Below, piece by piece: positions 1-15,252 of a DNA stretch of 40,491 bases. A model generated the notes under the pieces. That model made no database searches and had not been told where the DNA came from. It saw nothing but the letters and a program-made list of their open reading frames with translations. The stretch is from Candidatus Colwellia aromaticivorans (GTDB lineage: Bacteria; Pseudomonadota; Gammaproteobacteria; Enterobacterales; Alteromonadaceae), in NCBI RefSeq assembly GCF_003333305.1, contig NZ_QOLD01000018.1, positions 1-40,491 of the forward strand, written 5' to 3'. The number at the start of each line of letters is the position of its first letter. Positions within the stretch are counted from its first letter, which is position 1. The translations under genes were made by a program, and so were the position numbers.

Positions 1-1
1 G

Positions 2-106
2 AATGGATTAATACCATTCGACTATCTCATGCATTGCCTAGAGCAATTGACCAACTCTGCACTTGATATCGAAACATTATTGCCCTGGAATGTAAAACTT
101 AGCTAA
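2..106 (+). mobile_element. IS66-family transposase (TnpC) C-terminal remnant
   Basis: An open frame enters from the window edge and ends at TAA 104-106, giving 34 residues. It reads NGLIPFDYLMHCLEQL, then ends LLPWNVKLS. This matches the conserved C-terminal tail of IS66 TnpC transposases, where the protein typically finishes in a short segment around LLPW. Only the end of the gene is visible, so whether the IS is intact to the left cannot be seen. About 37 bases after the stop lies one copy of a 23-bp repeat (143-165) that recurs at 2819, which could be the IS right end. The family call rests on remembered motif similarity; no alignment was run. Confidence 0.72.
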
Positions 107-211: not shown

Positions 212-934
212 TTAATTTTTTAAATTTAGAAGTCGTTGGGATTCTAATAATTGTTCATGAATTAACTTAAAGCTATAATCATGCGGAAATACTCCAAGAT
301 AATATCGAATTCCATTTTTCATTCTAGTTATTAACCAGTGTCCCGTTTGTCTTCCTGCTTTATTTTTTCCAGATTTTAATATTTCACTTTCAACTTTTTT
401 CAGATCAATTTTGCCCGTCTCATCACTTAGATTATTTACAATTCGTTCTATGTTTTTGGGTTTTTCCATCATTTCCATATAAGCATTGGGAAGCATTGGT
501 GCATGGATATGTTCATAGTTTTTCAACAAGCAGCCTCCACTGAAAGATTTTGGGTTCTTTGATAGTTTTGTCGATGGAGGTACATTTTCTTCACCTTCAA
601 GCCACTTTATAACTTCAAAGACTTGTTGAGTATTTAATTGACACTCTTTATATATTGTAGCTTTTCTTAACAAAGCTAACTGTGAAAGTAATAAGGGAGA
701 TATCTGTTTTTTAAAATAAAAATTTATGAGCGAGTGATCATTTGTGATATGAGATATCCACTTTTCTTTTTTTTCAACTTGTTTATAATTTTTGTATCTT
801 TTTCCTCTTGGTAACTTATTCCCTATTTTATGCCGATAAGAATAATCTACAATCCAAGTTCTGCCTTTAAGTTTCGGAACAATACGATTTAATGTAGCTT
901 TTACTGATATGACTTTATCATTTTTACTTAACAT
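212..934 (-). CDS. hypothetical protein, 241 aa
   Basis: I do not recognise this protein. It is basic and hydrophilic, with no signal peptide or membrane segment. The N-terminal third is rich in Lys and Arg (for example KLPRGKRYKNYKQVEKKEK), and a small Gly-Cys segment, SFSGGCLL, sits near residue 135. The frame also allows a TTG start at 943, but AAAAGGGA lies about 10 bases before the ATG at 934 and almost touches the TTG, so 934 is preferred. It is transcribed divergently from the nuclease-like gene at 1207, sharing a 263-bp gap. Its place in mobile cargo with a nuclease and an NTPase suggests an accessory role, possibly defence. That is context only. Confidence 0.65.
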   Translation of the reverse strand: MLSKNDKVISVKATLNRIVPKLKGRTWIVDYSYRHKIGNKLPRGKRYKNYKQVEKKEKWISHITNDHSLINFYFKKQISPLLLSQLALLRKATIYKECQLNTQQVFEVIKWLEGEENVPPSTKLSKNPKSFSGGCLLKNYEHIHAPMLPNAYMEMMEKPKNIERIVNNLSDETGKIDLKKVESEILKSGKNKAGRQTGHWLITRMKNGIRYYLGVFPHDYSFKLIHEQLLESQRLLNLKN

Positions 935-1206
935 CTGTTTCAAATCCCTTTTAATAAATTGAGATGCATAATTACTATAACAGAATCAAAATAACCTAAT
1001 TGATGCAATGCCAATACAAATTAAAAATTTACTCTTAATTTCAGAAGTATGAACAGCCGTTATAGTTCTGGTTTAATGATTGCTATATTGGTGTTGGTTA
1101 TTTGACTTTGTATGTTAATTTAAAATATGCTGGTTTGAAGAAGATAACTAGTTTTAGGCAAAATAAAATAATTATTTAGTATTGTGGTTATTACAGGAAT
1201 TTTTTT
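935..1206. other. divergent intergenic region between two cargo genes
   Basis: This AT-rich gap separates the minus-strand 241-aa gene from the plus-strand 485-aa gene and must hold both promoters. I see no convincing -35/-10 pair. The plus-strand gene has a good ribosome site, AGGAA, about 8 bases before its ATG. No other gene is visible. Confidence 0.5.
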
Positions 1207-2664
1207 ATGAATATTTTAAATAATATATTGGATTTAAATAAAGAAAGTATTGAACTCGTAAACTCACTTATACAAAAAGAATGCCCATATCTTTTAGATA
1301 CTATTGAATTTACAGCAAGAGAATACGCACAAGTCATAGACTTAATATACAAAAATGGTCATATTGATATTTATTTGAATTTACTAAAGTCTCGACATAA
1401 TTTTAATAACTCATCATCAGCTACCCACTTTTTAAATTCATCTATTATTAAAAATCTTTTCGAATGTTCCAAAAAGCATAGCGAGGCTTTACCTTTCTTG
1501 AATGAAGTGGGGAAGGAAGTCTTAGATAAACTTTCTGAAACAACTAAAGCCTTTCTACCTACTTTACCAAGACATACGGGATTAGAAATATATGCAAAAT
1601 TTTTAATCGAACAAGATCGTATTGTTGAATTGAAAAATGTTTGTAATTTAGCTTTAGAATTAGGTTGGCGAGGAAACTGGAAGAAACTAGCAAACAAAAC
1701 CAAAGAATCAAATAAAAAAGACACATTAAAAGCTAAAAAAATTACACAAATGGGAGAGGAAGCTGAAAGTATTGCTAGGAACTGGCTAAAAGATAATGGG
1801 TTTACGATTTTGCAATTCGGGAGAAGTTATAATCAACAAAGTTCATCATTAGATATAGAACGTTTGCCTGAAATTAACGTTGGTTCATCAATTATTAATA
1901 TATGTAAAGAACTTGAAAAGACTAGAGAGATATTACCTGAAATTTCTCCTAGTGTTTTAAAAACTTCTAATTTCCCCAAAGAATTCGATTATCTAAAAAC
2001 AGAATTAATTAAATTAGCGAACATTTGTCAAACCAAATTTCCTTGTTTATTACACAAGGTTGATCCTACAAACGCTCCATGTAATTTGGGAGAAGATATG
2101 TTTAATCCAGATAAGTTGGCAACTTTAAATCCAGAATTAACTACGGGCCATAAACCTGGTTGTTTAAGTATTTCTAAATGCCAAACAAGGTTAGGATTGG
2201 TATCTGCGGTAATGAAAGACTCTAGTTTTTTAAAAAATAAATTCTTAAAAGACAATATTAAAGTTCACCGTTTTATACAACGATATATTGTTTATAAAAA
2301 TTTTTATGAGACTAACTTCAAAGAAACAAGAAAAAAATATAAATTTTCTCAACACCCTGGACGATATGATTTAGCCGCTTATAAAGGCGATAAATATTAC
2401 GCAGTAGAGGTAAAGGGAAATAGTAGTAAATTATCTCACTGGCAAGAAATTAGACTAGGGCTATTAAAGCGATTTGGCCATGAAGCCAGATTATTAAAAG
2501 TTCAATTTACATCAGATAAAAACTATCTATTGGAATTTGAAGACATAACTTCAAAAATACCGTTACCATCTGATGATGAAATTCAGGAAATATTAAACTT
2601 TGTGCATCCAAGTGAAAAAGGAAGAGAAGGTGCAATGGTAGATACGTGTATTATTCCTTTTTAA
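1207..2664 (+). CDS. PD-(D/E)XK (VRR-NUC-like) nuclease-domain protein, 485 aa
   Basis: The C-terminal part carries a PD-(D/E)XK signature: D388 (GRYDLAAYKG), then the E401-V-K403 motif (YYAVEVKG), followed by a Q and helix region (LSHWQEIRLGLLKRFGHEA). This is the order seen in VRR-NUC nucleases. Upstream at 182-205, MGEEAESIARNWLKDNGF resembles the opening helix of YraN/Mrr-type nuclease folds, so about 160 residues with six cysteines may be inserted inside the fold. Residues 1-180 look helical and unassigned. AGGAA lies 8 bases before the ATG. It sits in mobile cargo, divergent from an unknown gene and close to an NTPase gene, which fits a defence nuclease. Nuclease activity is inferred from motifs only. 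Confidence 0.72.
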   Translation: MNILNNILDLNKESIELVNSLIQKECPYLLDTIEFTAREYAQVIDLIYKNGHIDIYLNLLKSRHNFNNSSSATHFLNSSIIKNLFECSKKHSEALPFLNEVGKEVLDKLSETTKAFLPTLPRHTGLEIYAKFLIEQDRIVELKNVCNLALELGWRGNWKKLANKTKESNKKDTLKAKKITQMGEEAESIARNWLKDNGFTILQFGRSYNQQSSSLDIERLPEINVGSSIINICKELEKTREILPEISPSVLKTSNFPKEFDYLKTELIKLANICQTKFPCLLHKVDPTNAPCNLGEDMFNPDKLATLNPELTTGHKPGCLSISKCQTRLGLVSAVMKDSSFLKNKFLKDNIKVHRFIQRYIVYKNFYETNFKETRKKYKFSQHPGRYDLAAYKGDKYYAVEVKGNSSKLSHWQEIRLGLLKRFGHEARLLKVQFTSDKNYLLEFEDITSKIPLPSDDEIQEILNFVHPSEKGREGAMVDTCIIPF

Positions 2665-2926: not shown

Positions 2927-5900
2927 CTAAGATAGAGACCTATTTTTTATATAAAAATCTAAATTTTTAAACGATCTATCTAAGTCTTTCAACCCATTTA
3001 CAGCATTATTAAGTTTAGCCATATCCTTCCTAGTGAACATTTTCATTGCTATCTGATTTACTATATTGAAACTATTTACATCTTTTTTTGTTTCGAACCA
3101 CTTGATTACTAAATTTACTAAGTCAGAATGTTCGAATCCGCTTTCAATACAGTCTTCAAACCACTGCGTGGTGAGCCGCCATGATAACGCTTGCTCATCT
3201 GCATACTCTTTTTCTAAGGTGTCAGTGTTAATTGATGTGATTGATCTATATTTATTTTTTGAAACAGATTCATCAATATTTGTTCGTCTATATTGAAACC
3301 ACTTATTTCGATTACATACGTTCCAAAGAGAGTGAATATCACTTTCACTTAAATGCTCTTTATAACGCCATAAGGCTTCTACCTGCTTTAGCCTTGTTAT
3401 TCCTTTTCTTCCATTAGTCCTGTCACCAAACGCCATTAAAACATGTTTGAAAATATCTTGAGGTTCTGTTGAACTCTCAACCTCTTTGTGAACAAGCTCT
3501 AATAATTTAGGAAGAGAAATATATAATGCTGCTTGAATAAATCGTCTCCGACTTTTAACTTTTTCCCAATTATCTAGCAAGATCCGATTTGATGTATCTA
3601 GTTCCATCTCCATCAATAATTCAGAAAGAATATAATCTACGTCCCCCTCTTTTTCTGTGCTTATTTCGCTTATTGTTTTAGAAAAATAATCGGTAAGTTC
3701 TTTATTCCAAACATATCTACCTGTTTGCCACCAATATCTTTTATTCGAAGGGATCAACTCTATTACCGAATTGATAACAGATAAATCACCTCTCTTGGCT
3801 CTTTGAAAAATAGCCCATTCAAAAGCGTCATCTTCTTTGTAAATTGAATTTAGAAATGAGAGGTCTGTATTTTTTTCAACTGAACCATAAATTTTTGTAG
3901 CAGCTTTGACCATGGAGAGGGAAGATTGTTTATCTTTAATAATTTTTTCTAAAAGCTTTTTAGACTCATCAGACATCTTATTTTTGCGTCTATAGTGATC
4001 AGTAAATGTTGAGCTAACAAAGAAGCCATATTTTGATTTTTCATACCTTTTAGCCAAAGATTCAACTATGTGTTGTACAGCAACAGGTACTCCTAATACT
4101 CTAAACATATAAGTAATAGGCCACTCAAGTCTTTCATCCTCACTCGCCCTTTTAGCAAAGTAAGTTAGCGCATTAATAGGTACATAGGATTCAAATGCCC
4201 AAGACAAACCATCACTAGCAAAAGAGTTTAAACCACTACTTCCGTAATCATCTTCTTCAGCAGGTAAAATAGCCCATTGATCGCAAACTTCACCCAATAA
4301 TGATTCATCATTTTCATGGCAGCGAGCAGCCGCCCACATATAGCTCAAAAGGTTTTCTTTTTTGTCTTTTGACTTTCTCCAACATTTACCTATTGATGGT
4401 TCAAGTGAGGAATCACCTAGATAACCTGCCAATAATAAACCAGCATTCAGTGTATTATCGCATTTAGGGTTTGAGCCTAATAAATCACTTAGCTGCTTAC
4501 TGTAAGCCTGCCCATGTTTTGAAAAAACATGAGCTAACAACTCTTTTCTTCCACTTACTTTTATACCAAGCTCATGCCTTGAAACTAGGTTTAGACCCGC
4601 ATTCAAATCACCATTTCTAAACCTAGCCTCCAGCCAGAATTCATTTGACGAGCTGTTTGTAAATAACGTAGTCATTGGTATAACGCATTCAGAATCAATC
4701 CTTGAAAGTATGCTAATTGCTTCAAATCTTATATATTCATTCGCCAATTTATCTTTGTTAGTTTCAACAATCCACGCTTCAATTTTTTTAATCAGATAAG
4801 TCGTATCTATAAGGCTACTTGTTGTAGTCAGTTTGAATGTATGGAATAAACTTAAGGGGTTTTTTCTTAAAAGGTAGTCTATTGATTTTTGTTTAAGTAA
4901 ATTTTTTACAAGTGCTACGGCTATTGCTTCCGAATAAAATGGGTCGCATATATATTCAATTTTTTGCTGTGAATTTAAGTCTTTAGCAATAATTTTTGCA
5001 GTCATTGCTAAGCTAATTCTATCGTGACGGAAGGAAAGAGAGTTACTACCATTTTTGTTTGAAAAATAAATTGCAGAGCCTTTTTTCAATAGCTTCTTCA
5101 AACTGCCTAATTTGCTAGGTGAGTATTTGAACCATCCAGTTATTTCTTTTATGGTTGGATTGAAATTTCTATTGTTCAATAAACAGCAAACTAACTCTTC
5201 ATATAGTTCTTCAACTTCATCTTCATAAATATCATCAAAATTAGCCGAAATTTTACAAATGTCGTTGCTTATATAATTTTCAATGATATCGGCAGCGGAG
5301 GTTTCTGAACTTAAGTCACTTAAAGCTATTAATAAAGGGTCATTACCAAGTGATGAGCATATTGATGCTATTTCTACTTCTGATAGTTCGACTCCGATCT
5401 TTTCTGCTTTTACTTTGACAGCTTCGTTTGCCTCTATTTTTGAAAAATTGCTTACATATGAAGTAAATTCACTAATTTTTACTTTTTCATCATATTTTAA
5501 GCTATCGACATAATTAGGATATACAGGACATACAATTAGCCATTTATCAGATGTATTTTTTTGTATCCATTTTAATATTTTCTGTAATGTTTTTGTTGGG
5601 CTATCCGAGTTATTTATGTCTTCAATAACTATAACGAAAGGCAATTGGTGTTGACAAAGATCAAGGGCTGTTGCTCCAGCATCATCGTTTAAATTGTTTT
5701 CAAATGCGGATAATTGCTCAGTTATAGCTTGTTCTAGAGAATTTGATTTATCAATGATTCTTTCAGATAAAATGATACCTGCGCTGCCATTATCAAAATT
5801 AGCTTTAAAGAAATTAAAAGCAATAATTGATTTACCAACGCCTGACTCCCCGACTAAAAATTGATGATTACTTACTACAGGCTGATAGGTTACTCTTTGA

Positions 5901-6550
5901 ACCATTAACTGAACATCAATAAGCTTGGAATAATCATCGATTTGCTTTTCTGTAATTTCCCTCAACAATTCAAGTGATAACTTCTCTGGTTTTTCAGCCA
6001 AATATAGTTTTCTTAAATATTGACCTTTAGCTGTCGTGTCGAGGTAATTGGCTATTGTAGTACCTCCATGAATTTCTAAGTCTATATCATTTTCTTTGGC
6101 TAAAGTCTTAGCATCTAAGATCGTTTCTGGTTTAGGATCAAATGTCGATACTAAAGCGATTGTTGCTTTTTTTATATCTTGATATTTAGAACGATAACCG
6201 TTAATTTCATTAATAGCTTTTCTTAAATCCCCCTCGTTACCAGTGGGGCCTTTTGCGAGGTCTTTGGGCTTTACAGTCGATAGATCTTTAAGAAGCTTGT
6301 CATGTAGGCGACTGATATCTGTCGTTGTATGTTCTAAACCAGCTACTCCTAATTCACCATTTTCTACATAGACTGAAAACCCGTCTAATGGTGCTTTAAC
6401 CGTACTTCCTTTCGGGTTGACACCTAAATGACTTGTACTCTGATACTTATTTGGATTAAACGATCTTAAATAAGCAGTAGCTAACCTTTCAAATTTAGCT
6501 GCATCTTTAAATTCCGATAACTTTTTTACTGTTTGATTAACGTTAGACAT
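2927..6550 (-). CDS. large STAND/Avs-like P-loop NTPase with N-terminal nuclease-like domain
   Basis: This protein is about 1,207 aa. Numbering from an upstream ATG at 6610, it has three parts. Residues 30-190 resemble a restriction-endonuclease-like fold: FERLATAYLR helix, D76 in LDGF, E93 in GLEHTTT, then a GGTTIANYLD...GQYLRKLYL linker. A P-loop domain follows with Walker A GESGVGKS (Lys 260) and Walker B VIVIEDIN (E330, D331). About 700 residues of helical, TPR/HEAT-like sequence complete it. This layout is that of STAND-type signal ATPases, including Avs anti-phage sensors, where the C-terminus senses and the N-terminus attacks. The start at 6550 begins the conserved-looking part; 6610 adds 20 residues and has GGGG just upstream, so it cannot be excluded. 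The usual Lys of the nuclease triad is replaced by Thr, so catalysis is uncertain. Confidence 0.7.
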   Translation of the reverse strand: MSNVNQTVKKLSEFKDAAKFERLATAYLRSFNPNKYQSTSHLGVNPKGSTVKAPLDGFSVYVENGELGVAGLEHTTTDISRLHDKLLKDLSTVKPKDLAKGPTGNEGDLRKAINEINGYRSKYQDIKKATIALVSTFDPKPETILDAKTLAKENDIDLEIHGGTTIANYLDTTAKGQYLRKLYLAEKPEKLSLELLREITEKQIDDYSKLIDVQLMVQRVTYQPVVSNHQFLVGESGVGKSIIAFNFFKANFDNGSAGIILSERIIDKSNSLEQAITEQLSAFENNLNDDAGATALDLCQHQLPFVIVIEDINNSDSPTKTLQKILKWIQKNTSDKWLIVCPVYPNYVDSLKYDEKVKISEFTSYVSNFSKIEANEAVKVKAEKIGVELSEVEIASICSSLGNDPLLIALSDLSSETSAADIIENYISNDICKISANFDDIYEDEVEELYEELVCCLLNNRNFNPTIKEITGWFKYSPSKLGSLKKLLKKGSAIYFSNKNGSNSLSFRHDRISLAMTAKIIAKDLNSQQKIEYICDPFYSEAIAVALVKNLLKQKSIDYLLRKNPLSLFHTFKLTTTSSLIDTTYLIKKIEAWIVETNKDKLANEYIRFEAISILSRIDSECVIPMTTLFTNSSSNEFWLEARFRNGDLNAGLNLVSRHELGIKVSGRKELLAHVFSKHGQAYSKQLSDLLGSNPKCDNTLNAGLLLAGYLGDSSLEPSIGKCWRKSKDKKENLLSYMWAAARCHENDESLLGEVCDQWAILPAEEDDYGSSGLNSFASDGLSWAFESYVPINALTYFAKRASEDERLEWPITYMFRVLGVPVAVQHIVESLAKRYEKSKYGFFVSSTFTDHYRRKNKMSDESKKLLEKIIKDKQSSLSMVKAATKIYGSVEKNTDLSFLNSIYKEDDAFEWAIFQRAKRGDLSVINSVIELIPSNKRYWWQTGRYVWNKELTDYFSKTISEISTEKEGDVDYILSELLMEMELDTSNRILLDNWEKVKSRRRFIQAALYISLPKLLELVHKEVESSTEPQDIFKHVLMAFGDRTNGRKGITRLKQVEALWRYKEHLSESDIHSLWNVCNRNKWFQYRRTNIDESVSKNKYRSITSINTDTLEKEYADEQALSWRLTTQWFEDCIESGFEHSDLVNLVIKWFETKKDVNSFNIVNQIAMKMFTRKDMAKLNNAVNGLKDLDRSFKNLDFYIKNRSLS

Positions 6551-6840
6551 TAGACATTTCTTTATTGGCACATAATAAACTGAAATTATTGATAAGTTTT
6601 CACTTTTCATTCATACCCCATACTAACACTCGAATTAATTATGAATAAACACTTTCAATGCATGCAGCATTCTGAGGAATACAGATCAATAAGCAATTTT
6701 TTCGAAAAGTATGATTTTTTTGAGGCACAACTGATTATATACTGAACTTTCGAATGGCCGCTTTGGTGGCATTGTTCACACTCAGGCTGAGCGACTTACT
6801 GGCAAAAAGCCATCATCAAAAGTCCCATATACTCATCTGT

Positions 6841-6873
6841 GGGGAACGTCCGCTATCGTATCTAAGTGAACAT
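6841..6873 (+). repeat. diverged 33-bp repeat, copy 2
   Basis: It begins GGGGAACGTCCGCTATCGTA and matches 28 of 33 bases at 2679-2711. It lies upstream of the NTPase gene while the other copy lies downstream, so the two bracket that gene. Confidence 0.75.
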
Positions 6874-7018
6874 AAACTGGCCTAATTTTGAGGACTAATT
6901 TAGGTCAGTAATGTGGCATTTTTTGTCATTAGGAGATCGTCTTTTTAGTGGCAGAAGTGTGCATTAGCAGTGTTCAATATATCCAAAGATGACAGATCTA
7001 ATAAAGTCGAAATATTAT

Positions 7019-7070
7019 TGGCACAGTTAAATGTAATTGGCTGGCAAAGGTAAATGCAATTAGGTGGCAC
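7019..7070 (+). repeat. tandem 23-bp units resembling IS21-type terminal repeats
   Basis: Two adjacent 23-base units, 7019-7041 (TGGCACAGTTAAATGTAATT then GGC) and 7042-7064 (TGGCAAAGGTAAATGCAATT then AGG), match at 18 of 23 positions and are followed by a third TGGCAC. Multiple short direct repeats of this kind are typical of IS21-family and Tn7-like ends, where they bind transposase. No transposase gene is present nearby, so this would be a solo end. The assignment is tentative. Confidence 0.5.
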
Positions 7071-7153
7071 TGATGGTAGAGATTTTCCAGATGGTTCTAG
7101 GAAAACTGATTATATATACTTAGCACAAGTTGATAGCTATAAATATCCTGCTT

Positions 7154-7648
7154 TTAAATAATCCCTAGCTTTAGTTTATCTTTAATCGGCATTTTTCCTA
7201 TTAAATCGTCATAAAATTCACTCAGTTTTTTATCTTTCAATTCGTCGTATTCTTGCTGCAAGCTTTGAGCTTTCTTCACTATTGTAATTTTGTTTTTAGC
7301 AAGTAATCCACCTTTCTTCTTGATACGAGCATTCATCTTCTTTTCTAACTCATCGTTAATTTCCTTAAAATATTTTTTAAGGTCAGTAGAGTATGAGTTA
7401 CTTTGAAAAACACCTGTTCTTCCTTCCTTCATTTGGCGAACAATATCTTGTATTTTAATCTGATAATTTCCCTTCTTTCTGTAGTCTGTAACCTTACTGT
7501 GTTTCTTAATAAAGGTAAGTTTTTCAAGTTTTAACTCATTGATTATGTTATATGCTTTCAGTGATGCATTCTTTTCACTAACCCAATCAGGGACACCTTC
7601 TTTTATATTAGAGTTTACTTCTTTATTTAAAATATCTAACAAAGTCAT
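7154..7648 (-). CDS. srap: SE-associated small Lys-rich protein (Srap-like), 164 aa
   Basis: This is a short basic protein with helical, coiled-coil-like character, for example LKKYFKEINDELEKKM and QSLQQEYDELKDKKLSEFY. No catalytic motif or membrane segment is visible. An upstream start at 7678 overlaps the large recombinase gene, but the ATG at 7648 follows that gene's TAG by one base, with GGAA about 10 bases before it, and begins MTLLDILNK, so 7648 is chosen. Its position as the last gene after intA, tfp and intB is what identifies it as the srap product of SE elements, which assists recombination. Sequence alone would not have named it. Confidence 0.6.
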   Translation of the reverse strand: MTLLDILNKEVNSNIKEGVPDWVSEKNASLKAYNIINELKLEKLTFIKKHSKVTDYRKKGNYQIKIQDIVRQMKEGRTGVFQSNSYSTDLKKYFKEINDELEKKMNARIKKKGGLLAKNKITIVKKAQSLQQEYDELKDKKLSEFYDDLIGKMPIKDKLKLGII

Positions 7649-7649
7649 G

Positions 7650-10331
7650 CTAATAATTCCATTTTTTTGATATATCAATCGCTGACTGCATCTCTTCGAT
7701 ATAGCTCACATTTCTATTTGTTTTGTTGTTTTTATCTAATTGTTTCATCATTTTGATAGTTTCTGTAACAATACGTTGACTCTCAATCTTGAAAACCAGT
7801 GGCATTGGTTGTTTTAATGCTGTGACATGATTTGCAACATTTAAAACAATGAAAACAATATTCTCTTGCTCTACTAGATGATTAGTGCAGCCGATACAAA
7901 ATTCAACACCAGCTTTATCTCGTTGAGGGACACCATCTTCAGCACAGTTAGCTCTATGTCTGTTCCTCATTTTTAACATGCAAAAGCCCCAAGGGTTAGC
8001 TTTTATGTCTGCTATCTCAAGATTTGCAAATTCCATCAAGGCTTGACCATATTGCTCTGGACTAACCACTTTAGTTTGTTTAAATACCCTTCTTAAGAAA
8101 ACATCCATTTTCCCTCCAAAATCACGTCTTTCATCGAATTTCATCGCATTTAAATGTGCAGTTAAAATGGAACTTATCACTCTTCTCTTAGCTATTTCTT
8201 CCGATGTTTGCATATGCTTTTCACGCAGATATCTACGATAGAATTGCTCTCCGAAATGCTTGAAGTTTGTGCGTATTAACCAACCAACATCACCGGAATA
8301 ACGTCGATATACACATTCAGCCCAGATATGACGAAAAGCATGGGGTGTGGGGTACGCACAGTTTGATTTGATCGTATTCAAAATATCGTTAAGACTTCCT
8401 CGATCAATTTTTTCACCTGGCTCAAGTGAAGCTAAATATTCTTTATGTTCAAGTAATAGTTGTTCATCCCACACCAAACGATTTTCAATACTCATGGTAT
8501 TGTTACAATAGCTTTCGATCAAAAATGCACCTGTACACCTTTTACTTTCAGTGATAACACCGACAGCTATCAATTTTGATAAATCATCTCGTACTTTACG
8601 TCTTACATTACATACTTGTTGGGTATTACTAGAAGATGAATATCGTTCTGATAACACTAACAGAGTGGTTCTTTCTGAAATATCTAACACCCCTTTAGCT
8701 CGTTTTTCTTGCAATTTTTCTAGCATATCTAATTCAACAAAAGGCACATAATTATCATTAAAGTGTCGCCATCCCGTAACACATGCAACATTAGCCCTAT
8801 TGCGAATATCAACCGACTGACTATCTTCATCACTTTTGAACAATATAGGCTGTGTTTCATCTGAACAGTGAAGTGTTTGAAGTTGCTTTAACAAGATATA
8901 TGAATTTAACGATATCTCTCTATATATTTTAGTTTCACCCCCCATTTTTGGCACTTTCCATTTCACTTGAAAACGAACAGGGTAACGAATTTGATCTACT
9001 ACATCATGATTACGAGAGATATTAATTGCAGTTTCTGGAAATGTATATTCTGACTCACGCCAACCTAGCAAAGCCATGATATTAGTAAAACCATATCGTC
9101 CAATTGTTGTATCAAACATAAAAATTGAAGATATATTTGTATCAGGCTTAACGATTACAGTCTGCTTAACAAGTTCGTCAATCAGTTTGTTTTTTTCTAT
9201 TTTGAAATTATTAAGAGTAAGATTTGCCCCGTTCACTAGATATTCCAAGGTATCAGAAAAATCATCTATTATTTGTTGTTCTGAAATATTTGATAAGGAT
9301 ACGTCAATAGATAACAATGATTTGATAAATAATTTGTTATCTTCATTACTGGTAAGTCCAAGACGTTCGAGCAATATATCTAATGCTGTATCGCTAAATA
9401 TTGCAAATTGTTTTACTGCATCTTTGTAGTGCTTTTCATAAGCAACCATCGCTCGTTTTTTAAACGTAGTAAAAGCTTTCTTTTGTTTATTTATCATTCT
9501 TGTTTGTTCTGTAGAATGAGTTTCCAAGATTGATATCCATACTAATGAATGATTGATTCTTGTATCTTCATAACCACTAATAAGTTCTGAACTTTGATTT
9601 TTCACTTGAGCAACGGCATAAGCTGCAAAAAAGTGTTGACTAAATAATATATTCAAATGATTTATGTAGTGCTTACCTATATCGAGCGTTAAAAAATTGA
9701 ATGACCCACCCTCTGCATAATCTGTATAAGATATATCTGCAACAGACATAAGCACCTTGTTAAGTGCGCTTGTTAGTCTTTTTTTGCTCATAGCATGAAT
9801 TAAGACATTTTTCATACCCAATAATTTACATATCATTTCAATTTTAGGTGGATTAAATGCCCAAAAAAGACGTGCACCATTGACCCCTATTCTCTTTGAT
9901 ATTCCTTTCTCGTTAGCTGAACATGTCAACATGACTTCTAAGAGAGTGGTCAATGATTGTGCATTTACCGTATCTATTTTTTCTTGTGTTAAAAAGCCAA
10001 ATAGCAAAAGCAAGCCTTGAAAAACAACTTTTTTAACTTTATTACTTTTGATATCACCTACCACATCACACCAAATAATCCATGCGAGCATGGATGTTTT
10101 TATTGAAAACTGTTGTCCATCTACAATAATAAAATAGTGTGTTTCTGCCCTGTATGCTGACAGATCAAACCAACCGAAATTGAAACTGTAGCTTGTAATA
10201 TCTTTTAGCACTAAAACATCATCAAACACTTCCCCTTTCTCTGGTGTCAATCCTGCAACTTGAGTTTTTAATTTAATATAAATACTTGTTTCTTCTATTT
10301 TTTTTGTTTTTTCAACATAAGTTATAGTCAT
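7650..10331 (-). CDS. intB: large tyrosine recombinase (IntB-like), 893 aa
   Basis: The catalytic residues of a tyrosine recombinase can be traced: Arg 425 in LLGWRESE, the H664-A-F-R667-H668 box, His 692 in FKHFGEQF, and a nucleophile at Tyr 698 or Tyr 701 in YRRYL. The protein is two to three times the usual length, with a long N-terminal region and about 190 residues after the active site. That tail has cysteines 784, 796, 812 and 815 (ending FCIGC) with His 792 and 818, suggesting a zinc-binding ribbon. It begins 6 bases after the upstream gene and is presumed to be co-transcribed. Its role would be cutting and joining element ends for integration or circularization. The family call is firm; the SE assignment depends on the neighbours. 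Confidence 0.8.
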   Translation of the reverse strand: MTITYVEKTKKIEETSIYIKLKTQVAGLTPEKGEVFDDVLVLKDITSYSFNFGWFDLSAYRAETHYFIIVDGQQFSIKTSMLAWIIWCDVVGDIKSNKVKKVVFQGLLLLFGFLTQEKIDTVNAQSLTTLLEVMLTCSANEKGISKRIGVNGARLFWAFNPPKIEMICKLLGMKNVLIHAMSKKRLTSALNKVLMSVADISYTDYAEGGSFNFLTLDIGKHYINHLNILFSQHFFAAYAVAQVKNQSSELISGYEDTRINHSLVWISILETHSTEQTRMINKQKKAFTTFKKRAMVAYEKHYKDAVKQFAIFSDTALDILLERLGLTSNEDNKLFIKSLLSIDVSLSNISEQQIIDDFSDTLEYLVNGANLTLNNFKIEKNKLIDELVKQTVIVKPDTNISSIFMFDTTIGRYGFTNIMALLGWRESEYTFPETAINISRNHDVVDQIRYPVRFQVKWKVPKMGGETKIYREISLNSYILLKQLQTLHCSDETQPILFKSDEDSQSVDIRNRANVACVTGWRHFNDNYVPFVELDMLEKLQEKRAKGVLDISERTTLLVLSERYSSSSNTQQVCNVRRKVRDDLSKLIAVGVITESKRCTGAFLIESYCNNTMSIENRLVWDEQLLLEHKEYLASLEPGEKIDRGSLNDILNTIKSNCAYPTPHAFRHIWAECVYRRYSGDVGWLIRTNFKHFGEQFYRRYLREKHMQTSEEIAKRRVISSILTAHLNAMKFDERRDFGGKMDVFLRRVFKQTKVVSPEQYGQALMEFANLEIADIKANPWGFCMLKMRNRHRANCAEDGVPQRDKAGVEFCIGCTNHLVEQENIVFIVLNVANHVTALKQPMPLVFKIESQRIVTETIKMMKQLDKNNKTNRNVSYIEEMQSAIDISKKWNY

Positions 10332-10337
10332 AAATAT

Positions 10338-12527
10338 TTATACTCTAATTTGTGATAAAAATAAATTTGGTAACATAGGTTTGTACTGTTCATACGCTAC
10401 AAAACCCTTGGTTTTAATCTGTTTTGATATTAAATTATTCAGAACATATTCTTTCCATTCAGCTTCTACAAGTACATGTTTTTCCAGATAAATTGGATTG
10501 TGAGTTGCTAGTACTTTATAGTGCTTTTCAGCTTCCTTTATGTAATGCAAGAAATTAACGACTGTCTCAACACTATCTATGACTCTAATCGCATCACCTT
10601 CTATATCAGTATCTGTCGGCTCTTTATTTTTATCTATACTATCGAAGGGCTGCACATTTCCACTTGTCTCTGATATAAGTTGAGTTCTTATCTGTCTCTC
10701 TGTTATTTTTTTTTGAATTTCTTCAATATTAGGCTTAAAAGCGACGTTTTCAATATCTTCCATTACGAATCTCAATAACCTCGCTGCTGTGTTTTTATGC
10801 TCTAAATTTTGTTCAGAAAAGTAAACGTCATGCTCAGTACTACCCATGTGCGAGTTGTTATTAACCAGTGCACCAACTCTAAAATATTTACTTTTTGCAT
10901 GAACGGCAGCCGTTTTAATCATTGACCCCGTGAACCAAGTTGGGTGAATCCAATTTGCTACTAATTTTCTGTAGGTATATATACTTGTATCATCATGGCC
11001 TTGCTTTATTCTAATATTCATCCAACGTTTAAGTGTCATTTCATAATTATTAAATAGACATTGAATTAAACTTAAAAACAAGGTGGATACTTGTTGCTGT
11101 TGTAATCCTTTTTTAACACGCTGAAGACAAGTCCCCCCTGACATAAGTGTAAGCATTTTTCCAATTGAACCAGTAGAGCAAAATGGCGCTTTATTTGCAT
11201 CTGTTGATGTTATTGACATTAATTCATCGACTGACTTTCTGTTTTGTAGAAAGGTTAATAAAGCTTTACCGGCTGGTAGTTTGGTATCTAATGTGTCTGT
11301 CGTCTTAAAATCGTGTGCTCTTGATTTCCAATAATCACAACTAAGATGCGTTATTTTTTTAGCACTACCATAAAAAATATAGTCTTCGTATCTTAATTTT
11401 CTTGCATCACTAGCTTGAACAGTTTGAGAACAGTTCAGCCAATAAAAACATATTTCTTCTGCTTTACTGACGGGATACGATGTTTGCTCACCCTTCAAAA
11501 AACCATCAAGTTGATTAATAAAACTATCATCAAATATTATTGCCTTGCAAAAAGTAAATACTGTTTTTTTATCAATCAATTTTTTTAAAATTAAATTTCT
11601 ATTACTGCCCAGTGTAGTAACAACATAATTTTTATTTTCTTCGAGACAAAAATCATGTACCAACACTTCCAAAGTTTGCTTTTCAACACTATGTGTCATT
11701 CTTGTCACTGAATATAAAATTTCTTTTTGAAATTTATATTTTCTAAATGTTTTATCTTTATCAGTGATAGTTGATTTTACAATCGCCACGTTAAAGTCGT
11801 TCCGTTTTAGTGTGTCAGTTAGATCACGACTCACTTCTTGCAAAATTAACATTAACTCTGCAACTGTCTGATTGAAGGATTGCATTAGAAATCTAGCTGA
11901 ACTTAGTCGTTGAAATACATCAGATTTTCCATCTTGTGCCATTTTTGATCCTAGCCAATTAATGCTCAAAAACCAATCTACAAGGGATTTTTGTTCGGAC
12001 TCTATTGGATTTAGCTTTGTTGCACTTTCAATTGCTAATAGTATATTGGTTTGTTTTGCATTTAATGATGGTATTCTCTTAGCGTAATTAATAAAGGATA
12101 TTACGCGAGTTGCTCCCTTCCCACTAAAGCCTTTATCAACAAGGTAAGTTTCAAAATCTTTAATTATTTTGAATTTACTTTTGTTAAGTTCATATTGATT
12201 TAAAAACTCAGTTAACCTTGGAAATTGCTCTGATATTTCTTTTAATTTGGACTCTCCATACTCATTCTGATGAGCATTGACATAAGTATAATACAAAGCT
12301 ACAGATCCAAAAACCAATTGAGCTGTTTCATCGTTACTAATGCATTCAAAAGTAATTTCCTTTACTCGTGTTGGCATACCGATAGTAATGCGCTTTGGTA
12401 GCACAGGTATTGTTTTAACATTGGTCTTCTGTTCAATATCAGCATTTAATGACTTATTGAATGCTGAGCGGATTTGGTGCACTTCAGTCTCAATTTCATA
12501 GTTTGTCGTTTTTTTAATTTCATCCAT
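10338..12527 (-). CDS. tfp: degenerate tyrosine-recombinase-fold protein (Tfp-like), 729 aa
   Basis: It lies between two tyrosine recombinase genes, 10 bases after intA and 6 before intB, with AGGG ahead of its ATG. A first-Arg-like segment, ASDARKLRYEDY, occurs near residue 375, and H560-MGSTEHDV-Y569 resembles the His-to-Tyr box of recombinases. No H-x-L-R-H box is found in between, so the active site appears incomplete. This agrees with tfp of SE elements, described as a recombinase-fold protein lacking catalytic residues that is still needed for movement. It probably acts as a structural partner in the synaptic complex. Without its neighbours I would call it hypothetical. Confidence 0.65.
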   Translation of the reverse strand: MDEIKKTTNYEIETEVHQIRSAFNKSLNADIEQKTNVKTIPVLPKRITIGMPTRVKEITFECISNDETAQLVFGSVALYYTYVNAHQNEYGESKLKEISEQFPRLTEFLNQYELNKSKFKIIKDFETYLVDKGFSGKGATRVISFINYAKRIPSLNAKQTNILLAIESATKLNPIESEQKSLVDWFLSINWLGSKMAQDGKSDVFQRLSSARFLMQSFNQTVAELMLILQEVSRDLTDTLKRNDFNVAIVKSTITDKDKTFRKYKFQKEILYSVTRMTHSVEKQTLEVLVHDFCLEENKNYVVTTLGSNRNLILKKLIDKKTVFTFCKAIIFDDSFINQLDGFLKGEQTSYPVSKAEEICFYWLNCSQTVQASDARKLRYEDYIFYGSAKKITHLSCDYWKSRAHDFKTTDTLDTKLPAGKALLTFLQNRKSVDELMSITSTDANKAPFCSTGSIGKMLTLMSGGTCLQRVKKGLQQQQVSTLFLSLIQCLFNNYEMTLKRWMNIRIKQGHDDTSIYTYRKLVANWIHPTWFTGSMIKTAAVHAKSKYFRVGALVNNNSHMGSTEHDVYFSEQNLEHKNTAARLLRFVMEDIENVAFKPNIEEIQKKITERQIRTQLISETSGNVQPFDSIDKNKEPTDTDIEGDAIRVIDSVETVVNFLHYIKEAEKHYKVLATHNPIYLEKHVLVEAEWKEYVLNNLISKQIKTKGFVAYEQYKPMLPNLFLSQIRV

Positions 12528-12537
12528 TTAGATTACC

Positions 12538-13758
12538 CTAGACCTTTTCAGCTATAAGCATGAAATCAACAGAGCGTATATATCGCATAGTTACTTCCTG
12601 AGCGAATTCTTTTTTATTGATTTTATGGCCCATTAACCGCGCCATCTCACTAATTACAGCATGACCAGGGGTTATTGAATGATGAGGAGTACCACGACAA
12701 AGCACATGGAATTTTTCAGTTGCGAAACTATGACGAAGGTGGTGATATGAGTTTTCTTCATTCAAAACAATATCATCTACGCTACTACTACTGAGTAACT
12801 TATTTTTAACTTCAGTAAATATGCGAGTTGCACATTTAACAGTAATTGCATTTCCTGAGTGATTAGTTTCATAGCTAACAAATAATGAATTAGAATTAGA
12901 ATCTGGACGTTCGGTTAGATAATATTGATGACATTTTTCTAATAAAGAACGAGGAATATATATTATTCTCGCTGGAGAACCTTCGTTTCGTCTTGCTTTA
13001 GTAATTATCAATAAATACTCAAAAACTTGTTTATCTTTTTGCTTTAGCTCATCAAATAAAGTTAAAAAACCTTTAACTGGCTTTTTTGCATACGTAAAGT
13101 TTTCGAGGAATAAACTTGTATTTTCCATTGATCTAAGTCCACATTCAAAGCCAAACCTTAATAGTAGTTCATCTCTTACTGTCTTACATTCAAGTAACAT
13201 CATTGTTCTAGTACTTTTTAGAATGTACTTATAAGCTCTTTTACGTATTACATTTTTTTGAGCTTCTTTCCTAAGTTTTGGATATATATATAAATTCTTG
13301 GTATTAGTTATTTCAAAAAGTGAAAGGTAATTGTAATATGCTGTAAGGACAGATCTTACTTGAGTAGCTGTGTTGATACCTTTTTTTAGATCTGAAATCA
13401 AATAATCGTTCAAGTATGTATTTATAAATTCAGAAGTCGCATGAGTATGCATATGAACATTGGGAAGTTTAGAGTTTACTTGAGATTGTTGTTCAACATA
13501 TTGGAGGAAATGTAGAATAACCCCCTCATATTGATTAATCGTATGTTGAGATACCTCTATTTTATCGAGAATGACTTCAACTTCTCCTGTTGTTTTATTA
13601 ACTCTTTCTTTTCGCTCTGGCACATATCCCATCCTGTTCATTGAAATTGAGAACAGTGTTGGTAAAAGAACTGGTAAACCTTCAGAATCAATGAAGCTAA
13701 CAAACCTATCTACTTGAATTGATTTCATGTAGTTACTGTTATGTATAAATTTTTCCAT
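12538..13758 (-). CDS. intA: tyrosine recombinase/integrase (IntA-like), 406 aa
   Basis: A complete tyrosine recombinase active site is present. Numbering from an upstream TTG at 13773, it has Arg 214 (CGLRSMEN), a Lys candidate at 259 (ITKARRNEG), H344-H-L-R347-H348, His 383 (MGHK) and Tyr 398 (TMRYI). The N-terminal SAM-like core-binding domain spans about residues 70-165. Length is normal for the family. The ATG at 13758 is preferred to the TTG, though neither has a good ribosome site; an ATG at 13728 is also possible. It heads the four-gene module and lies next to the expected element end by hemH. It should catalyse strand exchange at the element ends. Confidence 0.82.
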   Translation of the reverse strand: MEKFIHNSNYMKSIQVDRFVSFIDSEGLPVLLPTLFSISMNRMGYVPERKERVNKTTGEVEVILDKIEVSQHTINQYEGVILHFLQYVEQQSQVNSKLPNVHMHTHATSEFINTYLNDYLISDLKKGINTATQVRSVLTAYYNYLSLFEITNTKNLYIYPKLRKEAQKNVIRKRAYKYILKSTRTMMLLECKTVRDELLLRFGFECGLRSMENTSLFLENFTYAKKPVKGFLTLFDELKQKDKQVFEYLLIITKARRNEGSPARIIYIPRSLLEKCHQYYLTERPDSNSNSLFVSYETNHSGNAITVKCATRIFTEVKNKLLSSSSVDDIVLNEENSYHHLRHSFATEKFHVLCRGTPHHSITPGHAVISEMARLMGHKINKKEFAQEVTMRYIRSVDFMLIAEKV

Positions 13759-13773
13759 TTTAGCTATTATCAA

Positions 13774-14178
13774 AAAGTGTTCATTTTAGATTGAACTATA
13801 GCGCAAACTATATCAATATAAATTTTTGATCTTTGACTAGATTAGGTATGCAATTTAGTCTTCAAGATAGCATTGGTTAAAAAAAACAATCCATGTCAAC
13901 GTGAATTATTTTTTTTACAATTGTCTTTTTTGATGATACGTTTTTCATTACAACAGTTTACTGAGTTTTTATACAGTATGTCAATGTACTAAAAAGCTTT
14001 ATGCTTTAACCAAACTGTTCACTGCCATATTAAATATAATTTCCTTAATCACTTCTCTGTGCAGCGCGCAGCGTCTCTGTGTTCTCGGTGGTTAAACATG
14101 TTACTTCAGTGATAAAGTAAAATTCACCACAGAGAACACCGAGGAACTATGTCCTCACCGAGAAAAACAACCACAAAA
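13774..14178. other. 405-bp intergenic region containing the probable right boundary of the mobile element
   Basis: The stretch is very AT-rich up to about 14040, then changes to an inverted repeat (14075-14143) that looks like host repeat DNA. The element-to-chromosome junction should lie in between, perhaps near the TATACAGTATGTCAATGTAC segment at 13970-13989. I could not find a matching inverted copy elsewhere in the window, so no boundary is claimed. No gene is visible. Confidence 0.45.
14075..14143. repeat. inverted repeat downstream of hemH
   Basis: The left arm CTCTGTGTTCTCGGTGGT (14075-14092) pairs with ACCACAGAGAACACCGAG (14126-14143) with 2 mismatches in 18, around a 33-base loop. 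Arms of the CTCTGTG/GTTCTC/GTGG type recur between genes in many bacterial genomes. It lies 3' of hemH and could help end its transcript, but no T-run follows. Confidence 0.75.
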
Positions 14179-15252
14179 TTATTTTTTATTCATCAGCGGT
14201 GTTAATATATTAACTAATGCCGAAATATGATCATCACGATCATTTAATGCGGCAATGTAATAATATTGTTCTCCACCTGCTTGTATGAACACCTCACGGT
14301 TTTCACATTCTAACTCTTCAAGGGTTTCTAAACAGTCGGCGCTAAAAGCAGGGCTTATAATAGCAAGATGTTTATTTCCTTCTTTAGCTAAAGTTGCAAG
14401 GGTTTCGTCAGTATAAGGCTGTAACCATTTTGCTTTACCAAAGCGTGATTGAAAAGTCATCACGAAAGTCTCATCAGTTAAGCCTAATGATCTTGCTAGT
14501 AACTCTTTTTTAAGTAAATCCGTGGTGATTTGGCAAAAATCAAAGTAGGGATCACCCCATTGATAAAATAACTCTGGCATACCGTGATAGGAAAGTACTA
14601 ACTTATCGGGTATGCCATGTTCAGATAAATGCTCACTGACAGAGTTTGCTAACGCTTTTATATATAAAGGGTTGTTATGGTAGCTGTTGATAAAATGAAG
14701 GCTTGGTACATATCGCCATTGCTGTAGCTCTTTACTCACTGCATCAAAAGTAGATGCTGTCGTTGGGCCTGCATATTGTGGATATAAAGGTAACACTACA
14801 AGTTGGTCTACGCCTTGTTGTTGAAATTCTTGTAATACACTGCTTATGGAGGGGTCACCATAGCGCATAGCTACATCAACAATGACATCTTCGCCAAATT
14901 GCTGTTTTATTTGTGCCGCAACTTTTTGTTGCTGAGCCTGACTAATAACCAATAATGGCGCGCCCTGCTCTGTCCAAACACTTTGGTACAATTTGGCCGA
15001 TTTTTTAGGGCGAAAACGTAGCACGATACCATGTAATATCAGCATCCAAATCACACGGGGAATTTCAACCACTCGTGGATCAGATAAAAACTCACGTAAA
15101 TAGTTGCGTACAGCAGTGGTAGTAGGCACAGCAGGTGAGCCTAAATTAGTTAATAGCACCCCAACTTTAGGCGCTGAATGACTATAATCACTACTTTGTT
15201 TTGAACTATTCTTTTTTGAACTATTCTTTTTTGCACTAAAACGTGACTTCAT
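14179..15252 (-). CDS. hemH: ferrochelatase
   Basis: Ferrochelatase inserts ferrous iron into protoporphyrin IX, the last step of haem synthesis, at the inner face of the membrane. The chain starts its conserved core at KVGVLLTNLGSP (about residue 29). It has the catalytic His 223 in LSYHGMPE, the FQSRFG segment, and Glu 309 in the SPAFSADCLETLEE box. At 357 aa it is slightly long because of a Lys/Ser-rich N-terminal extension containing two copies of KNSSK, encoded by a perfect tandem 15-bp repeat at 15201-15230. No other ATG lies before the core, so the start is kept. Its position beside the cytochrome c maturation genes makes metabolic sense. Identity is firm. Confidence 0.95.
   Translation of the reverse strand: MKSRFSAKKNSSKKNSSKQSSDYSHSAPKVGVLLTNLGSPAVPTTTAVRNYLREFLSDPRVVEIPRVIWMLILHGIVLRFRPKKSAKLYQSVWTEQGAPLLVISQAQQQKVAAQIKQQFGEDVIVDVAMRYGDPSISSVLQEFQQQGVDQLVVLPLYPQYAGPTTASTFDAVSKELQQWRYVPSLHFINSYHNNPLYIKALANSVSEHLSEHGIPDKLVLSYHGMPELFYQWGDPYFDFCQITTDLLKKELLARSLGLTDETFVMTFQSRFGKAKWLQPYTDETLATLAKEGNKHLAIISPAFSADCLETLEELECENREVFIQAGGEQYYYIAALNDRDDHISALVNILTPLMNKK
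15201..15230 (-). repeat. perfect 15-bp tandem duplication inside hemH
   Basis: TTGAACTATTCTTTT occurs twice back to back on the plus strand and encodes two KNSSK units in the variable N-terminal extension of ferrochelatase. Being a multiple of three, it keeps the reading frame. Confidence 0.9.

Follow-up and report, generated by a model that had tools for sequence, protein, structure and literature searches.

The window, as the whole analysed stretch of DNA is called here, is a complete contig of 40,491 nucleotides (nt) from Candidatus Colwellia aromaticivorans (NZ_QOLD01000018.1, assembly GCF_003333305.1). It contains an operon of four genes, named here intA, tfp-like, intB and srap-like, which are arranged head to tail on the minus strand with intergenic gaps of 10, 6 and 1 base pairs (bp) and adjoin an interrupted dinB gene. 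Judging by its sequence, the operon probably represents the left end of an integrative element inserted in dinB and likely moving by the route of strand-biased circularizing integrative elements (SEs); we estimate the probability of this reading at about 75%. The features of the locus are as follows (aa, amino acids; att, attachment site).

The four-gene operon and its insertion in dinB

12538..13758, minus strand: intA, tyrosine recombinase, 406 aa
10338..12527, minus strand: tfp-like, recombinase-fold protein, 729 aa
7650..10331, minus strand: intB, large tyrosine recombinase, 893 aa
7154..7648, minus strand: srap-like, small Lys-rich protein, 164 aa
13877..13948, minus strand: interrupted dinB, 23-codon frame MKNVSSKKTIVKKIIHVDMDCFF ending with TAA
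13887..13903, minus strand: left target core of attL, dinB codons HVDMDC, the same motif being interrupted in 10 other loci
13881..13886, minus strand: 6-bp spacer TTTTTT of attL, compatible with dinB codons
13855..13880, minus strand: candidate left end of the element (the position of motif C in SE terms), the right end for comparison being absent from the window
13955..13984, minus strand: dinB promoter candidate, TTGACA, 18 nt, TAAACT
13978-13959, minus strand: LexA-type box TACTGTATAAAAACTCAGTA inside the dinB promoter candidate
14179..15252, minus strand: hemH (ferrochelatase) in the left flank, TIGR00109, 306.2 bits against a cut-off of 124.6

Both IntA and IntB possess the full RHRY set, the catalytic set of IntA being complete (R209, K254, H339, R342, H378, Y393), and IntB is unusually long and carries a C-terminal Cys cluster (C784, C796, C812, C815). 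The active site of the Tfp-like protein is altered (Q371, K401, R403, K538, H560, Y569), leaving a recombinase fold without the RHRY set. The full RHRY set of both recombinases, the unusual length of IntB and the Tfp fold without that set are named in the definition of SEs. The srap-like product would comprise 174 aa if translation starts at the TTG at 7678. The initial annotation of this DNA had described a four-gene operon of two complete recombinases, a recombinase-fold partner and a small partner, and the open reading frames (ORFs) and catalytic residues agree with that description.

Searches of the four core proteins against Pfam, NCBIfam, PHROGs and PADLOC-DB yielded weak or generic matches at most. 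IntA matched XerA/XerC-type families of NCBIfam under the cut-off, and the Tfp-like protein had no matches at E 0.01 in Pfam, NCBIfam and PHROGs. Weak matches of the srap-like protein to TCTP and PbeC, of IntA to TPR and of the Tfp-like protein to Csm2 were discounted. Foldseek alone gave no significant match for either predicted-structure model, and a second look with VIA-align was the sole informative structural comparison.

The dinB stub is situated between hemH and intA. It comprises about 22 codons of the host dinB, the remainder of its frame running into the element, and intA starts about 120 bp inside the interruption. Residues 1-23 of a congeneric intact DinB align by tblastn at 13948-13880, and the interruption falls in the codons of the DNA polymerase IV motif HVDMDCF. 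Among 38 congeneric genomes with a hemH match, the genome under study included, six were compared; an intact dinB follows hemH on the same strand in five of them, at a distance of 9-135 bp in four and of 1.5 kb in L077, and L078 has no dinB in the stretch examined beside hemH. The product of the intact gene is DNA polymerase IV according to NCBIfam and Pfam. Thus, the insertion "downstream of hemH" proposed by the initial annotation is right as to the flank, but the actual target is dinB, the stub of which lies behind hemH. The comparison with genomes lacking the insert, also proposed there, recovered the intact site, but the right end is absent from the contig. Scans of the window with Rfam and for tRNAs gave nothing, which leaves a tRNA target unsupported. 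None of the titles and abstracts obtained in the literature searches mentions such elements in dinB.

Relatives, element ends and the spare dinB

Relatives were sought in GTDB genomes with an alignment of IntB, which revealed 31 loci. The order intA-tfp-intB-srap, predicted initially for the window, is kept in 29 of them and in three plasmid loci possessing all four counterparts (Shewanella xiamenensis, Marinobacter sp. SBY-1 and Methylobacter sp. YRD-M1). The exceptions are L018, a 3.2-kb contig of a metagenome-assembled genome labelled Dokdonia, with intB and srap only, and L042, where the end of intB lies at the contig edge and no srap match was found. Homologues of srap follow intB in all loci but L042 and the short L001 and L011. 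The 29 loci include near copies (L025 and L026 share 98.5-98.6% identity with L003 across the core) and, judging from record titles and general knowledge, presumably belong to Gammaproteobacteria, many of them marine. Pairwise comparison of the window proteins with the three plasmid relatives gave E values of 1e-21 to 1e-98; the annotation of these plasmids lists Tfp, IntB and Srap as hypothetical proteins. In the Marinobacter SBY-1 plasmid (L003, 13373-18655), which is conjugative, the core is immediately adjacent to the integrase of an integron and to bla and qnrVC1 genes of the cassette type.

The family is sparsely distributed. The Tfp profile matched 2 of 148 genomes of the order, counting the genome of the window, and 4 of 398 genomes of the phylum sample, two of them strongly. 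In the genus, 5 of 39 genomes matched at E 0.001, three strongly: the genome of the window (G000), that of Colwellia sp. 75C3 containing L014 (G164), and G185. The window Tfp used as a single query found no matches in the genome contigs, where the IntB alignment did find relatives, and no relatives were found in the viral contigs searched.

The same dinB codons are interrupted in ten other loci (L012, L013, L014, L029, L034, L035, L037, L038, L040 and L041); the scan for the stub was not valid for L001 and L011, which are on the opposite strand. In the IntB tree, dinB-inserted loci fall into two fully supported separate clades, the first comprising the window, L012, L013 and L014, and the second comprising loci of Vibrio, Photobacterium, Thalassotalea, Psychrosphaera and Colwellia. 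The dinB label needs at least two changes on this midpoint-rooted tree, 11 rows without an assigned target being left uncounted, and a single change suffices in 0% of the bootstrap trees. Other clades appear to interrupt a GmrSD_C/HNH gene (L003, L025, L026) or a dUTPase_2 gene (L027, L028, L039), and L024 appears to interrupt a Mg_chelatase gene according to Pfam, presumably comM/YifB. The apparent target of L017, L019 and L021 has no Pfam match; we take it to be a gene with a flavodoxin-like motif. In 14 loci examined for it, whose right ends are unmapped, no second copy of the target gene was seen in the same locus.

L031 (Colwellia sp. 1_MG-2023) groups with a dinB clade without having a stub and is not counted among the ten. 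A DinB of the spare type, with an altered N-terminus, immediately precedes intA there (4864-6420), and the genome has three strong dinB-like matches (L081, L091, L101). Two elements seem to have inserted in tandem at dinB in this case.

For all ten relatives, the host genome contains the far side of dinB, which in nine of them lies on the same contig, giving element lengths of 13.8-35.8 kb for these nine. When the left flank with its 6 bp is joined to the right flank, the sequence HI/VDMDC[FY][FY]AAVEMR is restored in frame in all ten cases; a strict join pattern gives 9/10, L038 being in frame too with VEMRE instead of VEMRD. The 6 bp at the left end fit dinB codons in 11/11 cases (the ten relatives and the window, where only the left end is readable for this test), and those at the right end fit in 0/10, being foreign. 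The combination of dinB-like 6 bp on the left and foreign 6 bp on the right is the signature reported for SEs, in which, according to PMC9345347 and PMC10214605, target bases stay on the intA side and a fingerprint of the donor lands on the other side. The SE-like behaviour expected of the att sites was therefore recovered in the relatives, and this asymmetry is the main sequence evidence for a strand-biased mechanism.

All 11 host genomes searched contain at least two dinB-like matches. In the ten genomes with a stub and a far side, one match is the 5'-truncated remainder and another is a full-length divergent DinB, located 184-292 bp from the remainder in 8/10; in L037 and L038, the full-length gene lies deeper in the element, in the orientation opposite to that of the remainder. 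These spare DinBs are 47.6-60.2% identical to the host remainder and have the motif DMDAF[FY]VSVE, DLDSYY[AV]SVE or DLDCYYAA[VI]E versus DMDC[FY][FY]AAVE in the host. The target core GAYATGGAYTG is present in 10/10 occupied and 5/5 empty sites and in none of the ten spares. Polymerase domains are present in both spares scanned (L086, L097).

Promoter, cargo and state of the window copy

A LexA-type box (CTG-N10-CAG with perfect arms) precedes the stub in all 11 dinB-inserted loci, versus a mean of 0.24/11 and a maximum of 3/11 in 500 base shuffles. Among family loci without a dinB stub it was found in 3/20 (L001, L011, L018, L026, L031 and L042 are left out of this control). Both empty dinB promoters examined (L073, L076) have the box too, which indicates that the box was already there when the element arrived. 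The core genes follow the dinB stub in the same direction, and the stretch from the stub to intA contains no terminator-like site.

The remaining features of the contig lie on the cargo side of the operon and at the contig edge.

2927..6610, minus strand: ORF of 1227 aa, weak AAA_16 match under the cut-off
1207..2664, plus strand: ORF of 485 aa, weak VRR_NUC match under the cut-off
212..943, minus strand: ORF of 243 aa, no function assigned
1..106, plus strand: C-terminal end of an IS66-type transposase (IS, insertion sequence) at the contig edge, PF13817, E 8.6e-7, 29.5 bits against a cut-off of 30

None of the three cargo-side ORFs has a relative in the loci compared or a match in PADLOC-DB at E 0.01. 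Ten cargo ORFs of relatives were scanned as well. Type I restriction-modification genes are found on the cargo side of L013, L014 and L029, a RecD-like helicase and a PDC-M68B-like protein on that of L012, and an S-type pyocin/cytotoxic-domain protein on that of L034. Thus, the defence-like cargo suggested initially finds no match in the window itself, but is seen in relatives as restriction-modification genes. Two pairs of direct repeats, 85-86% identical (2678-2711/6840-6873 and 130-165/2806-2841), flank the cargo-side ORFs of the window, possibly as remnants of small repeats or IS ends.

The right end of the element lies beyond the IS66 fragment or is lost, and the copy in the window is incomplete or truncated, its right part having been removed either by an IS-rich gap or by a deletion. 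Two polymerase-family searches of the assembly found one gene, encoding a 417-aa protein behind another gene; we take the protein to be of the UmuC type and the preceding gene to be umuD-like. Genes that follow dinB in a relative were located on contigs C97 and C51 of the same assembly, both of which end 165 bp past the last base that can be aligned, near the expected end of dinB. The segment C51:1500-6304 (4,805 bp) is identical to the end of C97 (14000-18811), and both contain tandem repeats of about 337 bp (L117, L116), which suggests an assembly duplication near the dinB region.

Several observations weigh against the reading of the operon as part of an SE-type mobile element in dinB. The window assembly contains neither a spare dinB nor a dinB remainder, only the stub, and since the right end was not found either, the window copy may be dead. 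In L041, the far side lies outside its locus, so that the spare and the remainder are only putatively linked to the operon there, and the core genes of L012, L030 and L032 are split over more than one frame. The asymmetry of the att sites is an indirect indication of a circle, transfer or strand bias. Imperfect inverted repeats of 13-19 bp, C and C', belong to the SE criteria; terminal inverted repeats are visible in the Vibrio-type clade, with 7-15 of 20 bases identical, but hardly in the clade of the window, where ungapped comparison of the first 20 bases gave 6/20 for L012, 3/20 for L013 and 2/20 for L014. A search of the window for a C' partner of the left end gave loose matches at most. 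A LexA box is expected before dinB in any case and is also seen in the empty sites; its presence therefore does not demonstrate use by the element. A weak promoter-like site (TTTATA-TATAGT, 13822-13795) also precedes intA, and the number of promoter-like matches here is close to random expectation (3 versus 2.5 in shuffles).

It is conceivable, with chances somewhat below even, that the window copy is a dead remnant, in which an IS66-type insertion or deletion took away the right end and the operon keeps dinB broken. The transposase tail at the contig end, the lack of any dinB but the stub and the ends of C97 and C51 are in line with this; however, all four core genes are open with intact catalytic residues, the absence of the right end could also be due to a gap in the assembly at a repeated IS66 copy, and the duplication of a part of C97 in C51 means that the assembly is imperfect there. 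A comparable standing, a serious though not favoured possibility, can be given to an incidental LexA link, where the dinB codons are selected as a target and the genes are driven from an internal promoter. Conserved catalytic codons make a good target in any gene, and the box occurs in only 3/20 stub-less loci, which means that the family does not need it. On the other hand, the dinB label appears in two separate clades, and the way from the stub to intA is free of terminator-like sites.

The element of Paraglaciecola arctica (L012, 6636-7788) seems to be decaying, since its intA is divided between two frames and one in-frame TGA occurs in the dinB remainder (L083); the same strain has a second, distant family member, L023.

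Proposed mechanism and comparison with known systems

In the proposed SE-type scheme, the two active recombinases, the altered third one and the small helper would copy one strand out as a circle, which would insert into another dinB. The Tfp-like protein might bind the core DNA and hold the complex, having little or no cleavage activity. The host LexA-type dinB promoter would read into intA-tfp-intB-srap, and we infer that DNA damage would switch the recombinases on. A divergent full-length DinB lacking the target would replace the broken gene and escape re-targeting. Islands inserted in dinB would then move upon DNA damage yet leave the host a working gene.

A bolder interpretation, possible but with the odds tilted against it, is that the elements form a separate four-protein transposon class, a parasite of the SOS response that breaks dinB at its active-site codons, captures the LexA-controlled promoter to make copy-out respond to DNA damage, and repays the host with a target-proof foreign DinB, a natural "cut and rescue" strategy reached twice independently; the Tfp-like protein would then be chemically altered (Q, K, K, H, Y), not dead. 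SEs, their 6-bp rule and the carried target gene are already known. As far as literature searches show, three things are new: the protein family is a separate one, dinB with its LexA-type promoter is targeted repeatedly, and a spare DinB without the target is present in 10/10 cases with the far end found. Should the recombinases be driven by the dinB promoter, DNA damage would control movement directly, and the element would need no regulator of its own. The target-free DinB suggests that the cost of breaking a conserved gene is managed together with immunity to re-insertion, in parallel to bcp of SE-6283. Among Gammaproteobacteria, type I restriction-modification and bacteriocin-type genes appear to be carried by the family. 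As a diverged sister of SEs that has the same asymmetry of att sites, it shows which of their features are essential and which are not.

The published work consulted comprises PMC9345347, PMC10214605, PMC5385486, PMC8138268, PMC10121019 and PMC8865565. SEs were named in 2022 (Nonaka 2022, PMC9345347), and their single-strand copy-out mechanism is not settled. Tfp and Srap are the proteins used for the SE survey by Idola et al. 2023 (PMC10214605), and SE-6283 inserts in bcp and itself carries a bcp copy. The main texts of PMC9345347 and PMC10214605 contain no mention of dinB, SOS or LexA. SEs were already reported on 17.6% of Alteromonadales replicons (PMC10214605), which leaves little of the extension of the known host range initially expected from this locus.

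Reference proteins of SE-6283 and SE-6945 were taken from pSEA1 and further SE-type members from plasmids. In pairwise comparison with the two references, carried out in a small database with composition correction off, window IntA was marginal (E 0.05 and 0.4), and Tfp, IntB and Srap gave E >1 or nothing. Profiles of 30-31 family rows (the duplicates L001, L025 and L026 and rows under the length limit were left out) were then compared with those of 7-8 SE rows including both references. The hhalign probability was 98.6% for IntA (E 5.8e-16) and 93.5% for IntB (E 2.3e-7), the latter confined to the C-terminal part with the catalytic and Cys region; searches with the SE profiles recovered IntA of the family at a best E of 2.3e-17 and, weakly, its IntB at a best E of 2.9e-4. 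For Tfp and Srap, hhalign gave 1.6% and 2.1% (single-comparison E 0.032 and 0.023), and hmmsearch between the sets gave best E values of 0.84 and 0.2. In the same comparison, each of the four genes of L044 had a match to the SE profiles (E 5e-38, 1.8e-11, 5e-32 and 1.7e-6), which demonstrates that the test is able to detect remote SE-like kin. The profile comparison proposed by the initial annotation thus links IntA and the C-terminal part of IntB to SEs, but not Tfp and Srap, and the membership of the described SE family claimed there is not borne out. Since Tfp and Srap remained unmatched while L044 matched, the family is probably a sister of SEs that works like them, not a member.

L044 is a four-gene cluster beside mer genes in Pseudomonas aeruginosa pNK546-KPC (6722-11765; 385, 528, 599 and 117 aa). 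Its second protein lacks the box motifs, and the cluster could be a further SE or a Tn6571-type element.

It is improbable that the operon simply belongs to a distant SE whose Tfp and Srap diverged beyond recognition, although the same gene order and att asymmetry, the profile matches of IntA and IntB, the C-terminal CxxC present in 6/8 SE IntB proteins too and the low identity of the two reference SEs themselves (20.5-26.6%) are compatible with it. The failure of Tfp and Srap in a test passed by L044 argues otherwise, as do the length of IntB (893-926 aa in the window and the three plasmid loci versus 693-731 aa in eight SE members) and tblastn searches of plasmid records, where the window Tfp found 3 and the SE-6283 Tfp 37, with no overlap. 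In two congeneric genomes (G149, G181), three weak IntB matches have open frames of SE size (653-677 aa), and both kinds may coexist in the genus.

An assignment to GInt (ginABCD) or another named multi-recombinase element is very doubtful. GInt, compared here by its published description, is similar in having four essential genes, three of them recombinase-type and one small, and forms site-specific, putatively non-mobilizable islands. It differs in the order of the genes: ginA and ginB are catalytic, the protein without the first Arg is the third, GinC, and ginD is small, whereas the altered protein of the window is the second. The distribution differs too, GInt being reported on 5.2% of Enterobacterales replicons, whereas tblastn against 72,556 plasmid records (Tfp at E up to 1, IntA at E up to 0.01) found the family only in Shewanella, Marinobacter and Methylobacter, with an additional single weak match of IntA in Metabacillus.

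Gamma-mobile-trio (GMT) islands are multi-recombinase islands of Gammaproteobacteria with three genes (GmtY, GmtZ and GmtX) and with defence and offence cargo; NCBIfam, which presumably includes such models, gave no match of that kind for the four core proteins. RIT elements share three adjacent recombinase genes with the operon, but the archetype has recombinases of 315-410 aa, all with the catalytic Tyr, 34-bp repeats and no fourth gene, versus 406, 729 and 893 aa in the window. Tn554 (tnpABC) resembles the family in combining an ordinary recombinase, a large one and a small protein and in its 6-bp footprint; its target, which we take to be the conserved gene radC, is presumably a further likeness. 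It has three genes and no counterpart of Tfp, whereas the window and 29/31 loci have four genes.

The closest likeness is to SEs. Family IntB is about 160-230 aa longer than SE IntB, family Tfp keeps the invariant Lys, His and Tyr, and Tfp and Srap are not recognisably homologous to those of SEs in profile tests. Common to both are the order intA-tfp-intB-srap at one element end, two RHRY recombinases with a recombinase-fold partner, the 6-bp target sequence at the intA end with foreign 6 bp at the other, and a conserved gene as the insertion site, the bcp insertion of SE-6283 with its carried bcp being paralleled by the dinB insertion with its spare dinB.

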